Part shown: positions 106 to 6,092 of the stretch, one piece after another
Layout of the letters: each line of letters begins with the position of its first letter
How positions within the stretch are numbered: position 1 is the stretch's first letter
Assembly (NCBI RefSeq): GCF_000378965.1
Contig: NZ_KB900536.1
Coordinates: 2,410,052 to 2,474,051 of the forward strand
Length of the DNA: 64,000 nucleotides
Reading direction: 5' to 3'
DNA from: Thioalkalivibrio thiocyanodenitrificans ARhD 1
GTDB taxonomy: Bacteria > Pseudomonadota > Gammaproteobacteria > Ectothiorhodospirales > Ectothiorhodospiraceae
Notes under the pieces: model-generated
What the model saw: the letters and a program-made list of their open reading frames with translations, nothing else
Database searches by the model: none
Told to the model about the DNA's origin: nothing
Program-made: the position numbers and the translations under genes

Positions 106-2817
106 GTGAGCAAGACGCCGCCCCTGGTGCTGGTGGACGGGTCGTCCTACCTGTACCGCGCCTTTCATGCCCTGCCGCCGCTGACCAACGCACAGGGGCA
201 ACCCACGGGGGCCGTCTACGGCGTGGCCAACATGCTGCGCAGGCTGCTCAAGGACTACGCCCCCGAACACGTGGCGGTGGTGTTCGATGCCAAGGGCAAG
301 ACCTTCCGGGACGAGATGTACGCCGAATACAAGGCGACCCGCCCGCCCATGCCCGACGAACTGGCGGCCCAGGTGGGGCCGTTGCACCAGTTGGTCGAGG
401 CCATGGGTCTGCCGATGCTGGTGATCCCCGGCGTGGAGGCGGATGACGTGATCGCGACCCTGGCCCGCCAGGGGAAGGAGCACGGCCTGGAGGTGGTGAT
501 CTCCACCGGTGACAAGGACATGGCCCAGCTGGTGGAGCCCGGGGTGACCCTGGTCAACACCATGACCGGCACCACCCTGGATGCCGACGGGGTGAAGGAA
601 AGGTTCGGGGTGCCGCCCGAGCGCATCGTCGACTATCTGGCGTTGATCGGCGACACCGTGGACAACGTGCCCGGGGTCGACAAGGTGGGCCCCAAGACGG
701 CGGTGAAGTGGCTCGAGGCCTACGGAAGCCTCGACGGCATCATGGAGCATGCCGACGAGATCAAGGGCAAAGTGGGCGAGAATCTTCGCACGGCCCTGGA
801 CCATCTGCCCCTGTCCCGGGAGCTGGTCACCGTGCGCCGGGACGTGGAACTGGGCGTGACTCCCGAGGGCCTGCGCCTGGGCGAGCCGGACCGCAAGACG
901 CTCAAGGATCTGTTCACCCGCCTGGAGTTCCGTACCTGGCTCAAGGAGCTGGAGTCGGGTGAGGGGCACACGCAGGCCGCTACAGACGATCCGCCCGCCG
1001 TTCAGTCCGCCCAGACCTACGAGACCATTCTTGATGAGGCGGCTCTGGACGCCTGGATCGGGCGCCTGGAGGCGGCAGCGCTGTTCGCCTTCGACACCGA
1101 AACCACCAGCCTGGACTACATGCAGGCGCAGGTGGTGGGGGTGTCGTTCGCGGTCACCCCGGGCGAGGCGGCCTACCTGCCGCTGGCCCACGACTATGCC
1201 GATGTGCCGAACCAGTTGCCCCGGGACGGGACCCTCAAGCGCCTCAAACCCCTGCTGGAGAGCGCCAGGCACAAGAAGCTGGGTCATCACCTTAAATATG
1301 ACCGCAATGTGTTGCTCAACCACGGCATCGAACTGGACGGCATCGCCCACGACACCATGCTGGAGTCCTACGTGCTCAACAGCACCGCCAGCCGTCACGA
1401 CATGGATACGCTGGCGGAGAAGCACCTGGATTACCGCACCACGCACTACGAGGACGTCGCCGGCAAGGGCGCGAAGCAGATCCCCTTTTCCCAGGTGCGC
1501 CTCGAGGACGCTACCCCCTACGCGGCCGAGGATGCCGACATCACCCTGCGGCTGCATGCGCACCTCTGGCCGAAGCTCGAGGCCGCCGAGGGTCAGTGCC
1601 GAGTGTACCGGGAAATCGAGATGCCGCTGGTGCCGGTGCTCTCGCGCATGGAGCGAACCGGGGTCAAGGTGGACGCGGACCGGTTGTTCGCCCAGAGCCA
1701 CGAGCTCGCCGAGCGCATGGGCCAGATCGAACGCGAGGCCCACGAGGTCGCCGGCGGGGCCTTCAACCTGGGCTCGCCCAAACAGATCCAGGAGATCCTG
1801 TTCGAGCGCCAGAAGCTGCCGGTGCTGCGCAAGACCCCCAAGGGTCAGCCCTCCACTGCCGAGGACGTGCTCGAACAGCTCGCCCTGGACTATCCCCTGC
1901 CCAGGCTGATCCTGGAGCACCGCTCGCTGTCCAAGCTGAAATCCACCTACACGGACCGGCTGCCCGAACGCATCGACCCGGACACGGGACGGGTGCACAC
2001 CTCCTATCACCAGGCGGTGGCCTCCACCGGGCGGCTGTCCTCCTCGGACCCGAACCTGCAGAACATCCCGATTCGTACCGAGGAAGGCCGCCGTATCCGC
2101 CAGGCCTTCGTGGCCCCCGAGGGCCGGCTGCTGGTGGCGGCGGACTACTCCCAGATCGAGCTGCGCATCATGGCGCACCTGTCAGGCGACGAGGGGCTGC
2201 TCAAGGCCTTCGCCGAGGGCCGGGATATCCACCGGGCCACCGCCGCCGAGGTGTTCGGCGTGCCCCTGGACAAGGTATCGGGCGAGCAGCGCCGGGCCGC
2301 AAAGGCCATCAACTTCGGGCTGATCTACGGGATGTCCGCGTTCGGGCTTGCCCGGCAGCTGGGCATCGAGCGCGGCGAGGCCCAGGACTACGTGGACCGC
2401 TATTTCGCCCGCTATCCCGGCGTGAAGACCTACATGGAATCCACCCGGGAACAGGCCCGGGAAGCGGGCTACGTGGAGACCCTGTTCGGGCGGCGGCTTT
2501 ATCTTCCGGACATCAACGCCCGTAACGGCCAGATCCGCGCGCAGGCGGAGCGGGTGGCCATCAACGCCCCCATGCAGGGCACCGCCGCGGACATCATCAA
2601 ACGGGCCATGATCCAGGTGGATAACTGGATTCGCGAATCTCGAATACCGGCTGCCATGATCATGCAGGTGCATGACGAGCTGGTGCTGGAGGTGGAAGAG
2701 GGCGCCGTGGACGACGTGCGCGAGGAACTGTGCCGGCGCATGTCCGGGGCCGCCGAATTGAAGGTGCCCCTCCTGGTGGAGGCGGGCATAGGAAAGAATT
2801 GGGATGCCGCACATTAG
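106..2817 (+). CDS. polA: DNA polymerase I
   Basis: Full-length DNA polymerase I (903 aa) for gap filling, Okazaki primer removal and repair synthesis. An N-terminal 5'-3' exonuclease domain (about residues 1-290) is followed by a proofreading domain carrying the DTET Exo I motif near residue 330 and YAAEDAD (Exo III), so proofreading looks intact. One difference is visible: the Exo II region reads HHLKYD where E. coli has QNLKYD. The polymerase domain has motif A (DYSQIELR), motif B (RRAAKAINFGLIYG) and motif C (QVHDELVLE). The start is GTG at 106, just after a GGAG-containing stretch; no in-frame ATG fits the family N-terminus (MSKTPPLVLVDGSSYLYRA). Candidate small RNA genes follow, a position where enterobacteria carry Spot 42 and pseudomonads carry ErsA. 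Confidence 0.97.
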   Translation: MSKTPPLVLVDGSSYLYRAFHALPPLTNAQGQPTGAVYGVANMLRRLLKDYAPEHVAVVFDAKGKTFRDEMYAEYKATRPPMPDELAAQVGPLHQLVEAMGLPMLVIPGVEADDVIATLARQGKEHGLEVVISTGDKDMAQLVEPGVTLVNTMTGTTLDADGVKERFGVPPERIVDYLALIGDTVDNVPGVDKVGPKTAVKWLEAYGSLDGIMEHADEIKGKVGENLRTALDHLPLSRELVTVRRDVELGVTPEGLRLGEPDRKTLKDLFTRLEFRTWLKELESGEGHTQAATDDPPAVQSAQTYETILDEAALDAWIGRLEAAALFAFDTETTSLDYMQAQVVGVSFAVTPGEAAYLPLAHDYADVPNQLPRDGTLKRLKPLLESARHKKLGHHLKYDRNVLLNHGIELDGIAHDTMLESYVLNSTASRHDMDTLAEKHLDYRTTHYEDVAGKGAKQIPFSQVRLEDATPYAAEDADITLRLHAHLWPKLEAAEGQCRVYREIEMPLVPVLSRMERTGVKVDADRLFAQSHELAERMGQIEREAHEVAGGAFNLGSPKQIQEILFERQKLPVLRKTPKGQPSTAEDVLEQLALDYPLPRLILEHRSLSKLKSTYTDRLPERIDPDTGRVHTSYHQAVASTGRLSSSDPNLQNIPIRTEEGRRIRQAFVAPEGRLLVAADYSQIELRIMAHLSGDEGLLKAFAEGRDIHRATAAEVFGVPLDKVSGEQRRAAKAINFGLIYGMSAFGLARQLGIERGEAQDYVDRYFARYPGVKTYMESTREQAREAGYVETLFGRRLYLPDINARNGQIRAQAERVAINAPMQGTAADIIKRAMIQVDNWIRESRIPAAMIMQVHDELVLEVEEGAVDDVREELCRRMSGAAELKVPLLVEAGIGKNWDAAH

Positions 2818-2872
2818 TCAGGGGTGAGGGGTGAGGAGGTAGGCGTGCAGGCGTCGGGGTTGCGGGTCGGGC
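2817..2872. repeat. degenerate heptamer array after polA
   Basis: Directly after the polA stop codon the sequence can be cut into eight consecutive 7-bp units of the general form GTNNGGN (for example GTCAGGG, GTGAGGG, GTGAGGA). The array ends at the A-tract of the adjacent small-RNA terminator. It is the weakest member of the family of 7-bp-period arrays described elsewhere in this window. The period is seen directly; the family relationship is inferred. Confidence 0.5.
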
Positions 2873-2900
2873 AAAAAAAGCCCCGGCTGGCGCCGGGGCT
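2873..2900 (-). terminator. intrinsic terminator of copy A
   Basis: The stem AGCCCCGG/CCGGGGCT has a 6-nt loop and is followed on the minus strand by seven T residues (2873-2879). The T tail lies on the minus-strand side only; on the plus strand the hairpin is followed by CAAAAAAGG. It therefore terminates leftward transcription and is not the polA terminator, which supports a leftward transcript here. Confidence 0.75.
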
Positions 2901-2981
2901 CAAAAAAGGCTCAACTTGGGGGAGTCTGAGCCATCCACCCGCTCAGGGAGGGAAGCGGGGAAGCGCCGGGCTACAGCGCTT
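2873..2981 (-). ncRNA. candidate structured small RNA, copy A
   Basis: Read on the minus strand, this stretch contains three hairpins: AAGCGC/GCGCTT at 2961-2981, CCCGCT/AGCGGG at 2938-2959 and GGCTCA/TGAGCC at 2908-2932. An intrinsic terminator with a seven-T tail follows at 2873-2900. The second and third loops are C-rich (TCCCTCCCTG and a loop with CTCCCCC), the kind of loop that pairs with Shine-Dalgarno sequences in regulatory RNAs. An inverted, diverged second copy lies at 3251-3378 and keeps all three stems, with an A-T to G-C compensatory change in the third stem. No protein-coding alternative is convincing. The position after polA matches Spot 42/ErsA-type small RNA loci, but homology to them is not shown. 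Confidence 0.62.
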
Positions 2982-2985
2982 ACCG

Positions 2986-3014
2986 ATTATGACCGGGCGC
3001 CTGAAAAAAAGTTC
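2986..3014 (-). promoter_or_regulatory. promoter-like sequence for copy A
   Basis: On the minus strand GAACTT (3009-3014) is followed by TCATAAT (2986-2992). GAACTT with 16-17 nt spacing to a TC-rich -10 resembles ECF sigma-E/sigma-22 promoters, while CATAAT could equally be a sigma-70 -10. The first hairpin of copy A starts four bases downstream, so the transcript would start almost at the stem. The same AACTTT and TCATAAT elements sit at the same place upstream of copy B. Confidence 0.45.
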
Positions 3015-3216
3015 TCACCCGATCGGTCGGTGACCGGAAATGTGAGCTCTGTCCGGGCTACCGCCGATCCGTCAACCGCGTGCTGCTGCCCGGGCCACCG
3101 CCGCTCCCCCGAGAACCGGACCGCCCGGTCAGGTCGCCCGCCGTGCCGCACCGCCTTCAGATATCGGAAATCCCTCACATTTTCACCCTTTCTGGCCGAG
3201 TTGCCGGGGGCCGGTA

Positions 3217-3246
3217 AAACTTTTCCGGTGCAAGCGTTGTCATAAT
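3217..3246 (+). promoter_or_regulatory. promoter-like sequence for copy B
   Basis: AAACTT (3217-3222), 17 nt of spacer and TCATAAT (3240-3246) precede copy B. The arrangement and both short elements match those upstream of copy A, although the spacers between them are unrelated. That selective conservation argues for a shared promoter type, possibly an ECF sigma factor. Confidence 0.45.
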
Positions 3247-3250
3247 GAAC

Positions 3251-3378
3251 AAGCGCTCTAGCCCGGCGCTTCCCCGCTTCCTCCCCTGAGCGGGATCTGG
3301 CTCGAGCCCCCCAAGATCGAGCCTCCATGGTGCCCCGGCCGCCCGTTCTTCCTGAACCGGCCGCCGGGGTTCTTTTTT
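3251..3378 (+). ncRNA. candidate structured small RNA, copy B
   Basis: Plus-strand counterpart of the RNA at 2873-2981. Hairpins: AAGCGC/GCGCTT (3251-3271, loop TCTAGCCCG), CCCGCT/AGCGGG (3273-3294, loop TCCTCCCCTG) and GGCTCGA/TCGAGCC (3299-3323, loop with CCCCCC). A terminator at 3333-3378 follows. Relative to copy A the third stem carries a compensatory A-T to G-C exchange and one extra pair, while loops and linkers vary, as expected for a selected RNA structure. The transcript would be about 128 nt, ending about 45 nt before the ttcA-like start codon, so it could also act as a leader if readthrough occurs. Confidence 0.62.
3333..3378 (+). terminator. intrinsic terminator of copy B
   Basis: The stem CCCCGGC (3333-3339) pairs with GCCGGGG (3363-3369); the intervening bases can pair further. 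It is followed by TTCTTTTTT (3370-3378). It lies upstream of the ttcA-like gene, so it ends an independent transcript rather than any coding gene. Confidence 0.7.
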
Positions 3379-3423
3379 GGCGCCTTGCCGGGAAACCGCG
3401 GGGCACGTACTCTTCAATCCCTG

Positions 3424-4200
3424 ATGAGCGCATTCGCCCCGCCACCCAAATCCCTGATCCGCCTCACCGGCAAGGCACTGGGGGATTTCCGTATGATCGC
3501 CGACGGCGACCGGGTGCTGCTGGGCGTCTCCGGCGGCAAGGACTCCCTCAGCCTGCTGCACCTGCTGCACCATTTTCAGCGCCGGGCCCCGGTGCGCTTC
3601 GACCTGGCAGCGGTCACCATCGATCCCCAGAGCGAGGCCTTCGACCCGTCGCCGCTGATCCCCTACATGGAGTCCCTGGGGGTCGAGTACCACTACGTGC
3701 GTGAGCCCATCATGAAGCTCGCGACGGAACACATGGACAACGACTCCTACTGTGCCTTCTGCTCGCGCATGAAACGCGGCCTGATGTACCGCACCGCGCG
3801 GGAGCACGGCTTCAACGTGATCGCCATGGCGCAGCACCTGGACGACCTGGCGGAGAGCTTCCTCATGAGCGCCTTCCACGGCGGGCGGCTCAAGACCATG
3901 AAGGCCCACTACCGCATCGATGCGGGCGACCTGCGGGTGATCCGGCCGCTGGTCTACGTGCGCGAACGCCAGACGGCGGATTTTGCCGGGGCGGCCGGAT
4001 TGCCCGTGATCAGCGAGAACTGCCCGGCCTGCTTCGGCATGCCCACTCAGCGCCAGCATATGAAGGAACTGCTGGCCCGGGAGGAGGCGCAACTGCCGCG
4101 TCTGTTCCGCAACCTGCTTTCCACCCTGAGGCCGCTGATGTCGGAGGGCCTTGAGGACGTCCCGGAAGCACCGGCCGCGCCGGTCCGCAGGCAGGCCTGA
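3424..4200 (+). CDS. ttcA: TtcA-family tRNA thiolation ATPase
   Basis: 258-residue member of the TtcA/PP-loop family, which activates tRNA cytidine-32 with ATP for 2-thiolation using an Fe-S cluster. The PP-loop SGGKDS lies near residue 36. A CAFC pair (about residue 118) and a second pair in NCPACFG (about residue 200) match the cysteine positions of TtcA. It is shorter than E. coli TtcA (about 311 aa), lacking an N-terminal extension and part of the C-terminus, and could be a TtcA-like paralogue with another tRNA target. The ATG at 3424 is chosen over an in-frame TTG at 3385 because family similarity starts just after it. No good ribosome binding site is visible. The next gene starts 8 nt downstream. 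Confidence 0.8.
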   Translation: MSAFAPPPKSLIRLTGKALGDFRMIADGDRVLLGVSGGKDSLSLLHLLHHFQRRAPVRFDLAAVTIDPQSEAFDPSPLIPYMESLGVEYHYVREPIMKLATEHMDNDSYCAFCSRMKRGLMYRTAREHGFNVIAMAQHLDDLAESFLMSAFHGGRLKTMKAHYRIDAGDLRVIRPLVYVRERQTADFAGAAGLPVISENCPACFGMPTQRQHMKELLAREEAQLPRLFRNLLSTLRPLMSEGLEDVPEAPAAPVRRQA

Positions 4201-4208
4201 TCCGCCCG

Positions 4209-5072
4209 ATGGGCGGCCTGCTGCTTCGCGCGCTGCTCGGCCTGCTGGCCCGCCTGCCTCTGCGATGGAACCATGCCGTCGGCGGGACCCTGGGCTGGCT
4301 TGCCTGGGTCTGTCCCAACAGCTTGCGGCGCATCTCCGAAGCAAACCTGGCCCGGTGCTTTCCCGAACAGGATAACGCCTGGCGCCGGCGTGTGGCCCGG
4401 GCCAGTCTAATGGAGACCGGCAAGGCGCTCACCGAGGCCCCCTGGCTTTGGCGCGCCGGGCCGGAACGTATCCGGGCCCTGCTTCGGGGCATTGAGGGTC
4501 AGGCCCATCTGGATCGTGCCCTGGCCGAATCCCGGGGTGCGTTCCTGGTTTCGCCCCATCTGGGCAGCTGGGAGTTCGCCGGCCTGCATCTGGCCACCCT
4601 GGGGCCCATGACCAGCCTGTACCGGCCGCCGCGCATGCGGGCCCTGGACGCCCTGCTGCGCGCCTCGCGGGAGGCCACCGGCGCGCGATTGGTGCCCACC
4701 ACGCCGAGCGGCATCAAGGCCCTGCGCCGGGCGTTGGCGCAGGGCGAATACATCGGGATGCTGCCGGACCAGACCCCCAAGGGTGCCAGCGGCGTGTTTG
4801 CGCCCTTCTTCGGGCGGCCGGCCTACACCATGATCCTGCTTGCCCGCCTCGCCGGCCCCGCGCGCACGCCGGTGGTCTTCGGTTTCGCCGAACGCCTGCC
4901 CCGGGGCGGCGGCTATCGTTACCACGCCATCCCTGCCCCCGGGGGCCTCTACAGCGAAGACCCGGAAACCGCCGCCACCGCCATCAACCAGGCGGTGGAG
5001 ACGCTGGTGCGCAAGTGTCCGGAGCAATACGTGTGGAGCTATAAGCGGTTTTCCAGGAAGTGGGAAGTGTGA
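4209..5072 (+). CDS. LpxL/HtrB-family lipid A acyltransferase
   Basis: 287-residue inner-membrane acyltransferase of the LpxL/LpxM/MsbB family, expected to add a secondary acyl chain to lipid A on the cytoplasmic face. The catalytic HX4E motif is HLGSWE, near residue 117, with an N-terminal hydrophobic anchor. It is probably translated after the ttcA-like gene (8-nt gap). The last four codons (KWEV) and the TGA stop are made of the adjacent heptamer repeat; fmt ends the same way. A second family member is encoded convergently at 5136-6092. Which acyl transfer each performs cannot be told from sequence. Confidence 0.88.
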   Translation: MGGLLLRALLGLLARLPLRWNHAVGGTLGWLAWVCPNSLRRISEANLARCFPEQDNAWRRRVARASLMETGKALTEAPWLWRAGPERIRALLRGIEGQAHLDRALAESRGAFLVSPHLGSWEFAGLHLATLGPMTSLYRPPRMRALDALLRASREATGARLVPTTPSGIKALRRALAQGEYIGMLPDQTPKGASGVFAPFFGRPAYTMILLARLAGPARTPVVFGFAERLPRGGGYRYHAIPAPGGLYSEDPETAATAINQAVETLVRKCPEQYVWSYKRFSRKWEV

Positions 5073-5137
5073 ATCGGGAAGTAGGAAGCAGGGTGTCTGG
5101 TTTCTCTTCCCACTTCCCGATTCACACTTCCCACTTC
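5055..5137. repeat. heptamer-phase inverted repeat between acyltransferases
   Basis: The left arm (units such as GGGAAGT and GTGAATC) and the right arm (ACTTCCC, GATTCAC) are near-perfect inverted complements around a short centre, and units follow a 7-bp period. The left arm overlaps the end of the upstream acyltransferase gene and supplies its stop codon. The right arm touches the stop of the convergent one. It may serve as a bidirectional transcript end, although it lacks a T tail. Confidence 0.75.
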
Positions 5138-6092
5138 AATAGACGTTGCCTTCTCCCGCCGGGCGCGTCTTGAAGAACTTGAGTGTCCACAGGTACTGGG
5201 CGGGATCGCGGCGCACGACCGCCTCGATCGCCTCGTTCATGCGCCGCGCGTCCTCCTGCGCGTCGCCGCTCGGGAAATCCCCCATGGGTGGCTCCAGGCG
5301 CATCTCGTAGACGTCCTCATCCGGCCGGTAAATGCTCAGGCTCGGCAGCACGGCGGCGCCGGTGAGCTTCGCGAGCCTTCCCAGCGCAGGCAGCGTGGCC
5401 TTGGGCACCCCGAAGAACGGCACGAAAACCGAATGTTCCGGACCCAGGTCCTCATCCGGCAGGTAGTAGAAGAAACGCCCCCGACGGATATGACGAAGCG
5501 CGGGGCGCAGGCCCTGCGCCCGGGCGAAGATGTCGCCGCTGTACTGGGTACGGCTGCGGTGATTGATCCATTCCACCACGGGGTTCTTCATGGGCTTCGC
5601 GAAGGACACGCCGTCGTGGATCTGGCTCATGCGCAACCCGCCGAAATCCAGGGCCGGCGCGTGGGGGGCCAGTATGATCACCGGCCGCCCCGCCTCCCGG
5701 CAGGCCCGGTAGTGTGCCTCCCCCGTCAGGCGGATCCGCTGCGCGTGCACCCCGGGACCGCGAAACCACAGCATCCCGTAATCCAGGAAACACTGGGCGG
5801 TGATGCGAAAGTGTTCGCGCAGCAACCGCTCACGGGTGCTTGCATCCATCTCCGGAAAACACAGTGCCAGATTGACCGAAGCAATGTGCCGCCGCCGTGC
5901 GGAGAAACGCCACATGAGGACGGCGAGCCCCCGGCCCAGGGCCCGTACCAGCGGGCGCGGCAGCATGCTGATCAGCGCCACCACCCCCAGCCCCAGCCAG
6001 GTGGGCCAGTAGCGGGGATGAAGGAGGCCTGCGTGAAACGGCGCTCGATACGCTTCGGGGGCCGGGCCGGCCGGCGCCTCAGCCATCGGCAC
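5136..6092 (-). CDS. LpxL/LpxM-family lipid A acyltransferase
   Basis: 318-residue lysophospholipid acyltransferase-family protein with the HX4D catalytic motif HAPALD (about residue 144), a hydrophobic N-terminal segment (WLGLGVVALISMLP) and the family LCFPEM region. It is a paralogue of the convergent gene at 4209-5072, so the two may add successive acyl chains to lipid A. Its start overlaps the stop of the upstream TPR gene by 14 bp, which suggests translational coupling. Confidence 0.87.
   Translation of the reverse strand: MPMAEAPAGPAPEAYRAPFHAGLLHPRYWPTWLGLGVVALISMLPRPLVRALGRGLAVLMWRFSARRRHIASVNLALCFPEMDASTRERLLREHFRITAQCFLDYGMLWFRGPGVHAQRIRLTGEAHYRACREAGRPVIILAPHAPALDFGGLRMSQIHDGVSFAKPMKNPVVEWINHRSRTQYSGDIFARAQGLRPALRHIRRGRFFYYLPDEDLGPEHSVFVPFFGVPKATLPALGRLAKLTGAAVLPSLSIYRPDEDVYEMRLEPPMGDFPSGDAQEDARRMNEAIEAVVRRDPAQYLWTLKFFKTRPAGEGNVY

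Follow-up and report, generated by a model that had tools for sequence, protein, structure and literature searches.

A back-to-back pair of putative sigma-E small RNAs beside polA in Thioalkalivibrio thiocyanodenitrificans ARhD 1 and its probable kinship with sX13, anti-hemB and ErsA

Several small RNAs (sRNAs) have been described from the neighbourhood of polA, engB and hemB. sX13 lies downstream of polA, has three stems with C-rich loops and acts independently of Hfq; according to the parts of the paper that were available, its repression requires its own C-rich motifs as well as G-rich motifs in the targets, and it was reported to be exclusive to the Xanthomonadaceae, RNAs at the polA locus of other bacteria being left open (PMC3771888). 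ErsA occupies the polA-engB spacer, is controlled by sigma-22 and acts on its target anr with Hfq (PMC8575079, available in part). Anti-hemB corresponds to ncS04 of Burkholderia cenocepacia, which was tabled as an expressed 105-nt RNA and known family (PMC5688073, PMC3521395, both available in part); nothing on anti-hemB was found in the accessible portion of PMC4035088. Spot 42 (RF00021) likewise lies in the polA-engB (yihA) spacer and runs in the direction of polA. To date these have been described as RNAs in their own right, from a small number of bacterial groups, and no open-licence publication uniting sX13, anti-hemB and ErsA in its title or abstract was found, which is not proof of absence.

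Here, a stretch of 64,000 nt from Thioalkalivibrio thiocyanodenitrificans ARhD 1 (the window) was analysed, in which an earlier note had proposed an inverted pair of structured sRNAs between polA and a ttcA-like gene. The reading preferred here, and considered very likely, is that the two copies (A and B) are paralogous, trans-acting sigma-E sRNAs whose C-rich loops would block Shine-Dalgarno (SD) sequences, and that their family is an old one, located beside polA and engB or else in the engB-hemB interval, with sX13, anti-hemB and very probably ErsA among its branches.

Anatomy of the pair

Copies A and B are arranged as an inverted repeat, the 56-nt arms of which (2938-2993 and 3239-3294) are 88% complementary, and their likeness extends past the arms through stem 3 and the terminator. 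Each was folded into three hairpins and a terminator with the U run on its own strand (Table 1); both folds greatly surpassed those of dinucleotide shuffles (z -4.35 for copy A and -4.80 for copy B), and 0 of 200 shuffles were as good for either copy. An A-U pair in stem 3 of one copy is replaced by G-C in the other. Loops 2 and 3 are C-rich (loop 3 contains CUCCCCC in copy A and CCCCCC in copy B); loop 1, of the AGCCC type, is less so. Copy A points at the 3′ end of polA, on the strand opposite to it. No third copy was found in the genome at E <= 0.001 by whole-genome search, and no RNA family was matched in the whole window at the Rfam cut-offs.

Table 1. Features of the polA to ttcA-like interval, in window coordinates
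Feature	Position	Strand	Basis or remark
polA, conserved neighbour	106..2817	+	NCBIfam NF004397.1 (DNA polymerase I), 1250.7 bits; synteny
Copy A, putative sRNA	2872..2981	-	5′ end inferred from promoter spacing; R2 107.1 bits (R2 training sequence)
Copy A, terminator hairpin and U run	2872..2901	-	fold; helix 4 of the class covariation analysis
Copy A, hairpin 3	2908..2932	-	fold, class covariation; loop CUCCCCCAA
Copy A, hairpin 2	2938..2959	-	fold; loop CCCUCCCU, includes CCUCC
Copy A, hairpin 1	2961..2981	-	fold; class-wide helix 1 with double changes in 7/7 pairs
Copy A, putative -10, TCATAAT	2986..2992	-	16 nt between GAACTT and TC
Copy A, putative -35, GAACTT	3009..3014	-	sequence
Copy B, putative -35, AAACTT	3217..3222	+	sequence
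Copy B, putative -10, TCATAAT	3240..3246	+	17 nt between AAACTT and TC
Copy B, putative sRNA	3251..3378	+	5′ end inferred from promoter spacing; R2 94.8 bits (R2 training sequence)
Copy B, hairpin 1	3251..3271	+	fold
Copy B, hairpin 2	3273..3294	+	fold; loop CCUCCCCU
Copy B, hairpin 3	3299..3323	+	fold; loop GCCCCCCAAGA
Copy B, terminator hairpin and U run	3329..3378	+	fold
TtcA-like gene, local neighbour	3424..4200	+	221.5 bits, below the TtcA cut-off of 272

The putative promoters of A and B face away from each other across about 200 bp and conform to GAACTT-N16/17-TC, the sigma-E/AlgU promoter pattern. One RpoE over the cut-off (313.3 vs 236.15 bits) and six weaker relatives were found in the genome, and GAACTT-N16-TC begins 77 nt upstream of the RpoE match. 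Sigma-E control of the two copies is inferred from this motif and from the analogous case of ErsA. Between the two promoters lies an 18-nt inverted repeat (78%, 3038-3055 and 3165-3182), possibly a shared upstream element.

The earlier note had described two diverged copies back to back beside polA, each with three hairpins and a strand-correct, T-tailed terminator, a compensatory A-T to G-C change in stem 3, C-rich loops 2 and 3, and promoters resembling those of ECF sigma-E/22 ((G/A)AACTT and TCATAAT). All of this was recovered, the promoters as to motif and spacing, so far as a sequence can tell; transcription of the pair and promoter activity are inferred.

Two convergent lipid A acyltransferase genes follow the TtcA-like gene (4209-5072, plus strand, and 5136-6092, minus strand; PF03279, 166.6 and 255.3 bits), so that envelope-lipid genes lie near sRNAs with sigma-E-type promoters.

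Distribution, gene order and covariation

Forty-four copies, from 29 Ectothiorhodospiraceae loci and the window, were collected by iterated nhmmer. Covariance model R2 was trained on Ectothiorhodospiraceae copies only, with a structure set by hand; it replaced R1, the RNAalifold structure of which was without stem 3, as MAFFT had shifted groups of sequences by a column. For a further model, R3, every locus exceeding the cut-off for sX13 or ErsA was removed and intermediates such as L128 were kept; both window copies are training rows of R3 and score 102.6 and 84 bits by construction. Calibration of the covariance models was short.

The element was present in 41 of 47 Ectothiorhodospiraceae genomes by DNA search, and 37 of the 38 genomes that were at least 90% complete were matched by R2. 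The window pair is not a local curiosity: in the GTDB class Gammaproteobacteria, which takes in the betaproteobacteria, R2 matched 121/276 genomes and 99/216 genera (E <= 0.001), and R3 matched 158/276 genomes. Gene order was recorded at 120 loci from 118 R2-matched class genomes outside the Ectothiorhodospiraceae, neighbours being identified by tblastn with PolA, EngB and HemB. polA or engB was near the RNA at 99 of these, hemB alone at one and none of the three at 20. polA stood upstream on the strand of the RNA at 69/120 and engB was near at 79/120, downstream and on the opposite strand in 74 of the 79, so that the common order is polA, RNA, engB facing the RNA. Within the Ectothiorhodospiraceae, polA was upstream wherever it fell within the piece (about 50 nt to 1.3 kb), on the strand of the RNA except for the flipped copy. 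In genomes matched by R3 only, polA or engB lay alongside the RNA in 12 of the 14 matches listed, and none of polA, engB and hemB did in two. This synteny is an independent check, because a covariance model is blind to neighbouring genes. dsbA, a frequent further neighbour of engB, was near in three of the 20 loci without polA, engB or hemB.

The same neighbours bear on another reading, by which neither copy is a free sRNA: copy B would serve the ttcA-like gene as a 5′ leader or attenuator, and copy A would be an element of the polA 3′ end. The terminator of copy B does stop only about 45 nt short of the ATG at 3424; however, a ttcA-like gene was found at just one (L004) of 149 loci (29 from the family and 120 from the class), engB being near at 79 of the 120 class loci in the arrangement given above, copy A runs at the polA end on the other strand, and each copy has a promoter motif of its own. 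With ttcA not a usual neighbour, this reading was rejected as scarcely tenable, and the copies continue to be treated as free sRNAs.

Promoter motifs were likewise counted class-wide. Of 139 class copies, 73 were preceded by the strict pattern GAACTT-N14..18-NTC and 66 lacked it; letter shuffles gave a mean of 0.6 and a maximum of 3, and downstream flanks 4/139. The position of [AG]AACTT peaked 30 nt ahead of the model start, and no enrichment of TTGACA or TATAAT was found upstream of the class copies by the same test. Among the Ectothiorhodospiraceae copies, a relaxed sigma-E motif was present in 43/44 and the strict one in 27, the spacer to TC being 16 nt in 37 of the 42 measured.

Covariation was assessed in an alignment (A4) of 115 copies, 114 of them distinct, from the window and 97 of the 120 class loci; the 20 loci without polA, engB or hemB, the hemB-only locus (L200), an sX13 locus (L210, held out) and L207 were left out. 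Double changes occurred in all 25 modelled pairs. Paired cells amounted to 94.4% (74.0% in shuffled and <= 49.5% in slid controls), and the covariation score was 0.569 (0.195 and <= 0.086, respectively). The alignment was fitted to the model and its rows were found by it, so these counts lean towards the model; the slid controls were far lower. Conservation in relatives and covariation in an alignment, without which the earlier note would have counted its proposal as refuted, were thereby both observed.

The loops showed the reverse of the behaviour of the stems, being unpaired but fixed in sequence, and they exceeded most stem positions in conservation. Paired columns averaged 0.96 bits per position; loop 2 (CCUCCCU) held 0.79 to 1.92 and the CCCC core of loop 3 held 1.03 to 1.84, and values were also high in the terminator. 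CCUCC, the anti-SD core of 16S rRNA, was present in loop 2 of 82/115 copies, and CCCC in loop 3 of 95/115. Variable stems topped by constant C-rich loops are the pattern to be expected where loops pair with ribosome binding sites. The suggestion of anti-SD loops is supported to this extent, loop-SD pairing itself being inferred.

Copies are often repeated. Tandem arrays of four to five were found at L102, L128 and L173. The largest array seen, five tandem copies in about 750 bp (3059-3806, plus strand), follows directly behind polA at L102. The arrays, together with the repeated C-rich loops, would also suit RNAs that bind a protein by titration rather than mRNA. This was judged very unlikely, given that the loops complement the SD consensus and that, in the available parts of the sX13 paper, repression depends on the C-rich motifs of the RNA as well as on G-rich motifs in its targets (PMC3771888); pairing with mRNA is retained as the preferred reading.

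Copies at other places were also noted. Two tandem short copies each, all over the anti-hemB cut-off, lie on the minus strand at L175 (3412-3707) and L180 (3307-3604); tmRNA is in the same 7-kb piece, in which polA, engB and hemB were not found, and this is a second locus for the family. Extra copies off polA and engB were seen at L195 (3282-3653) and L211 (3466-3595), and the genomes concerned (G290, G156) also have a copy at the polA/engB locus. A search of a plasmid collection gave no match to the element.

Cuckoo RNAs of Alphaproteobacteria, to which the earlier note had compared the loops, have C-rich anti-SD loops and occur in multiple copies. In a wider draw of 397 genomes of the phylum, R3 matched 62, of which 13 were outside the class (best E 8.2e-6). 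These 13 matches were weak and away from polA and engB; polA, engB and hemB were absent from the pieces fetched (those of L394 and L405 were short), and the matches were treated as false positives, so that no extension of the family beyond the class is claimed. Single R3 matches weaker than about 1e-6 accordingly need the support of neighbouring genes. About 1 kb from one of the weak matches, the alphaproteobacterial sRNA ar35 (RF02346, 49 bits) was identified (L396, 2416-2512, minus strand).

Comparison with anti-hemB, sX13, ErsA and Spot 42

Anti-hemB (RF02837) came closest to its Rfam cut-off in the window: copy A scored 49.1 bits (E 1.9e-10) vs a cut-off of 49.5, 0.4 short, and copy B 31.7. 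Orthologues of copy A do exceed the cut-off, which was passed by 7 of the 15 Ectothiorhodospiraceae loci scanned (of 29) and by 8 of the 40 class loci scanned (of 120); the remaining 32 of those 40 matched no sRNA family at the Rfam cut-off. Hairpin 2 is almost letter-identical (CCCCGCUUC..CCUCCCUGAGCGGG), and hairpin 3 and the terminator are also alike. The two differ in that the Rfam model starts at hairpin 2 and is without hairpin 1, that the usual site of anti-hemB is engB-hemB rather than polA, a placement not met by the window copies between polA and the ttcA-like gene, and that both window copies are under the cut-off.

The letters of hairpin 2 were carried by at least 120 named loci, by title mostly from betaproteobacteria. 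Among the 120 listed, hemB was within 3.5 kb at 82, engB at 73 and polA at 9; engB or hemB without polA occurred at 92, and none of the three at 19, 12 of which lay within 700 nt of the end of the piece. The RNA faces engB in 72/73 of the named loci listed with that gene, and hemB is behind the RNA on the opposite strand in 82/82. The engB side of the locus is thus common to beta- and gammaproteobacteria. The same letters were met in a metagenome bin labelled Klebsiella pneumoniae (L353), which is possibly mislabelled.

The window meets the description of sX13 in being adjacent to polA and having three stems with C-rich loops, with the reservations that loop 1 is less C-rich and that copy A points at polA. 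Its score with the sX13 model (RF02232) was weak, 19.2 bits vs a cut-off of 50, and this model found no match in the genome at E <= 0.001. In the class genomes, three sX13 matches were over the cut-off, one of which was matched by R2, and 12 were below; 7 of these 12 coincided with R2 matches and 5 did not. R3, from which such loci had been withheld, scored three held-out sX13 loci at 41.5, 38.6 and 37.2 bits (E 3e-9 to 3.6e-8 in 25 kb); in whole-genome searches of these three genomes it again fell on sX13, and each genome gave a second match elsewhere. Unlike the window copies, two sX13 loci (L254, L255) have GAACC upstream with no TC at the appropriate spacing, so that this half of the sigma-E motif is missing, and sX13 is described as a single gene in what was available of its report.

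ErsA (RF01719, Pseudomon-1) scored 14.9 bits in the window vs a cut-off of 50, and its model gave no match in the genome at E <= 0.001. One class genome (G190) passed the cut-off and was unmatched by R2; of 11 matches below it, 8 coincided with R2 matches and 3 did not. That sub-cut-off matches of ErsA and sX13 coincide with R2 matches indicates that intermediate RNAs exist. R3 gave 22.8 bits (E 1.4e-4) on the ErsA locus of G190 (L227), with a local gap in place of the hairpin-2 block. Whole-genome searches of the family of G190 yielded six weak R3 matches in five genomes: in three, of Pseudomonadaceae type (G364, G536, G622), the match fell on the Rfam-called ErsA beside polA and engB, with 29 to 31 bits, and in two (G433, one match; G678, two) it was neither on ErsA nor by polA or engB. 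No R3 match was obtained in whole-genome searches of G190, G368 and G372 of the same family, and neither R2 nor R3 had picked up the G190 ErsA when the class was searched. GAACT(T/A) stood 17 nt ahead of TC in all four ErsA loci read. ErsA is thus like the window RNAs in its polA-engB spacer, its sigma-E/AlgU-type promoter motif and its R3 match in three genomes; it is unlike them in that hairpin 2 remains unaligned and that on anr, according to the accessible part of the report, it uses a U-rich unstructured domain and Hfq (PMC8575079).

For Spot 42, the likeness is one of place and direction. It was not matched by R2 and reached 10.5 bits with R3 (E 0.15), in the terminator part; its own model gave no match in the genome or in the 276 class genomes, an E. 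coli control being positive. Homology is supported neither by this model nor by R3, and the candidate was set aside. By its own model the class sample is without a Spot 42 carrier, and so offers no view of Spot 42 intermediates.

It remains possible that the RNAs of the polA locus (those of the window, sX13, ErsA and anti-hemB) are unrelated and have converged on the same spacer and on C-rich loops. The low ErsA scores with the gap at hairpin 2, the failure to recover Spot 42 and the different promoter of sX13 could all be read in this way. Convergence does not, however, account readily for whole-genome R3 matches falling on ErsA and sX13, for the coincidence of their sub-cut-off matches with those of R2, or for the direction relative to engB that is kept in the class loci and in the named loci listed; it is regarded as unlikely. 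Common descent is accordingly preferred, in graded form: that the window RNA, sX13 and anti-hemB are one family is well supported, membership of ErsA is probable, and membership of Spot 42 was not shown.

The earlier note had drawn parallels with Spot 42 and ErsA from their location after polA. The latter stands and probably amounts to homology, not to location alone; for Spot 42 the location alone stood, homology not being supported. The closer relatives anti-hemB and sX13 had been overlooked.

Origin of the pair, proposed action and implications

Two copies were present at 14 of 30 Ectothiorhodospiraceae places, tandem in 11 and divergent in three, namely in the window, L004 and L007, which are three of the five genomes of the genus of the window. 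L005 and L006, the remaining two, have both copies directed away from polA. A FastTree phylogeny of 42 distinct copies placed the five A copies of the genus in one group (0.89) and the five B copies in another (0.89). The simplest reading is that the duplication predates the radiation of the genus and that the inversion is younger and took promoter and terminator along. Only in this genus were two copies seen in opposed directions, and all 12 multi-copy class loci are one-directional. Five further loci outside the genus (L099, L108, L121, L127, L154) carry the whole RNA in reverse between polA and engB, so that, like copy A, it points at polA; flips of the RNA therefore recur. The product of copy A need not have been altered by the flip, in which promoter and terminator travelled along; the flip did set the two promoters in their divergent position. 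The divergent, duplicated arrangement, which the earlier note did not know as described, is real, and appears to be a derived, local feature.

Beyond the observed structure, covariation, family, locus and promoter motif, the following course of action is proposed. Envelope stress would free sigma-E, which, judging from the promoter motifs, would transcribe A and B; the transcripts would end at their own intrinsic terminators. The loops of hairpin 2 (CCUCCCU type) and hairpin 3 (CCCC type) would then pair with G-rich SD regions and stop translation of chosen mRNAs, as loop conservation and the experiments of others on sX13 suggest. The targets may be mRNAs of envelope proteins, which is a guess. 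Transcription is inferred; so are sigma-E control, from the motif and the ErsA analogy, and loop-SD pairing and repression, from loop conservation and the sX13 analogy. A and B may divide targets between them, because their loops 2 (CCCUCCCU and CCUCCCCU) and 3 differ.

A wider history can be sketched, which could equally well prove wrong: a single sigma-E-driven, SD-blocking sRNA would have been present in the polA-engB spacer since the ancestor of the beta- and gammaproteobacteria, sX13, anti-hemB and ErsA would be its descendants, Spot 42 would either have replaced it or be the form that diverged furthest, and the gene would repeatedly have formed arrays and flipped, giving rise to different loops and targets.

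Three Rfam entries become probable branches of one family, with a common locus, structure and loop code, and a sigma-E-type promoter is common to many branches of the family proposed. The first part of the question left open in the literature is answered for about a hundred genomes. The rules of loop and target established in Xanthomonas and Pseudomonas could in that case be applied to many bacteria, and paralogues whose loops differ, as those of A and B do, would allow the sharing out of targets among such RNAs to be tested.
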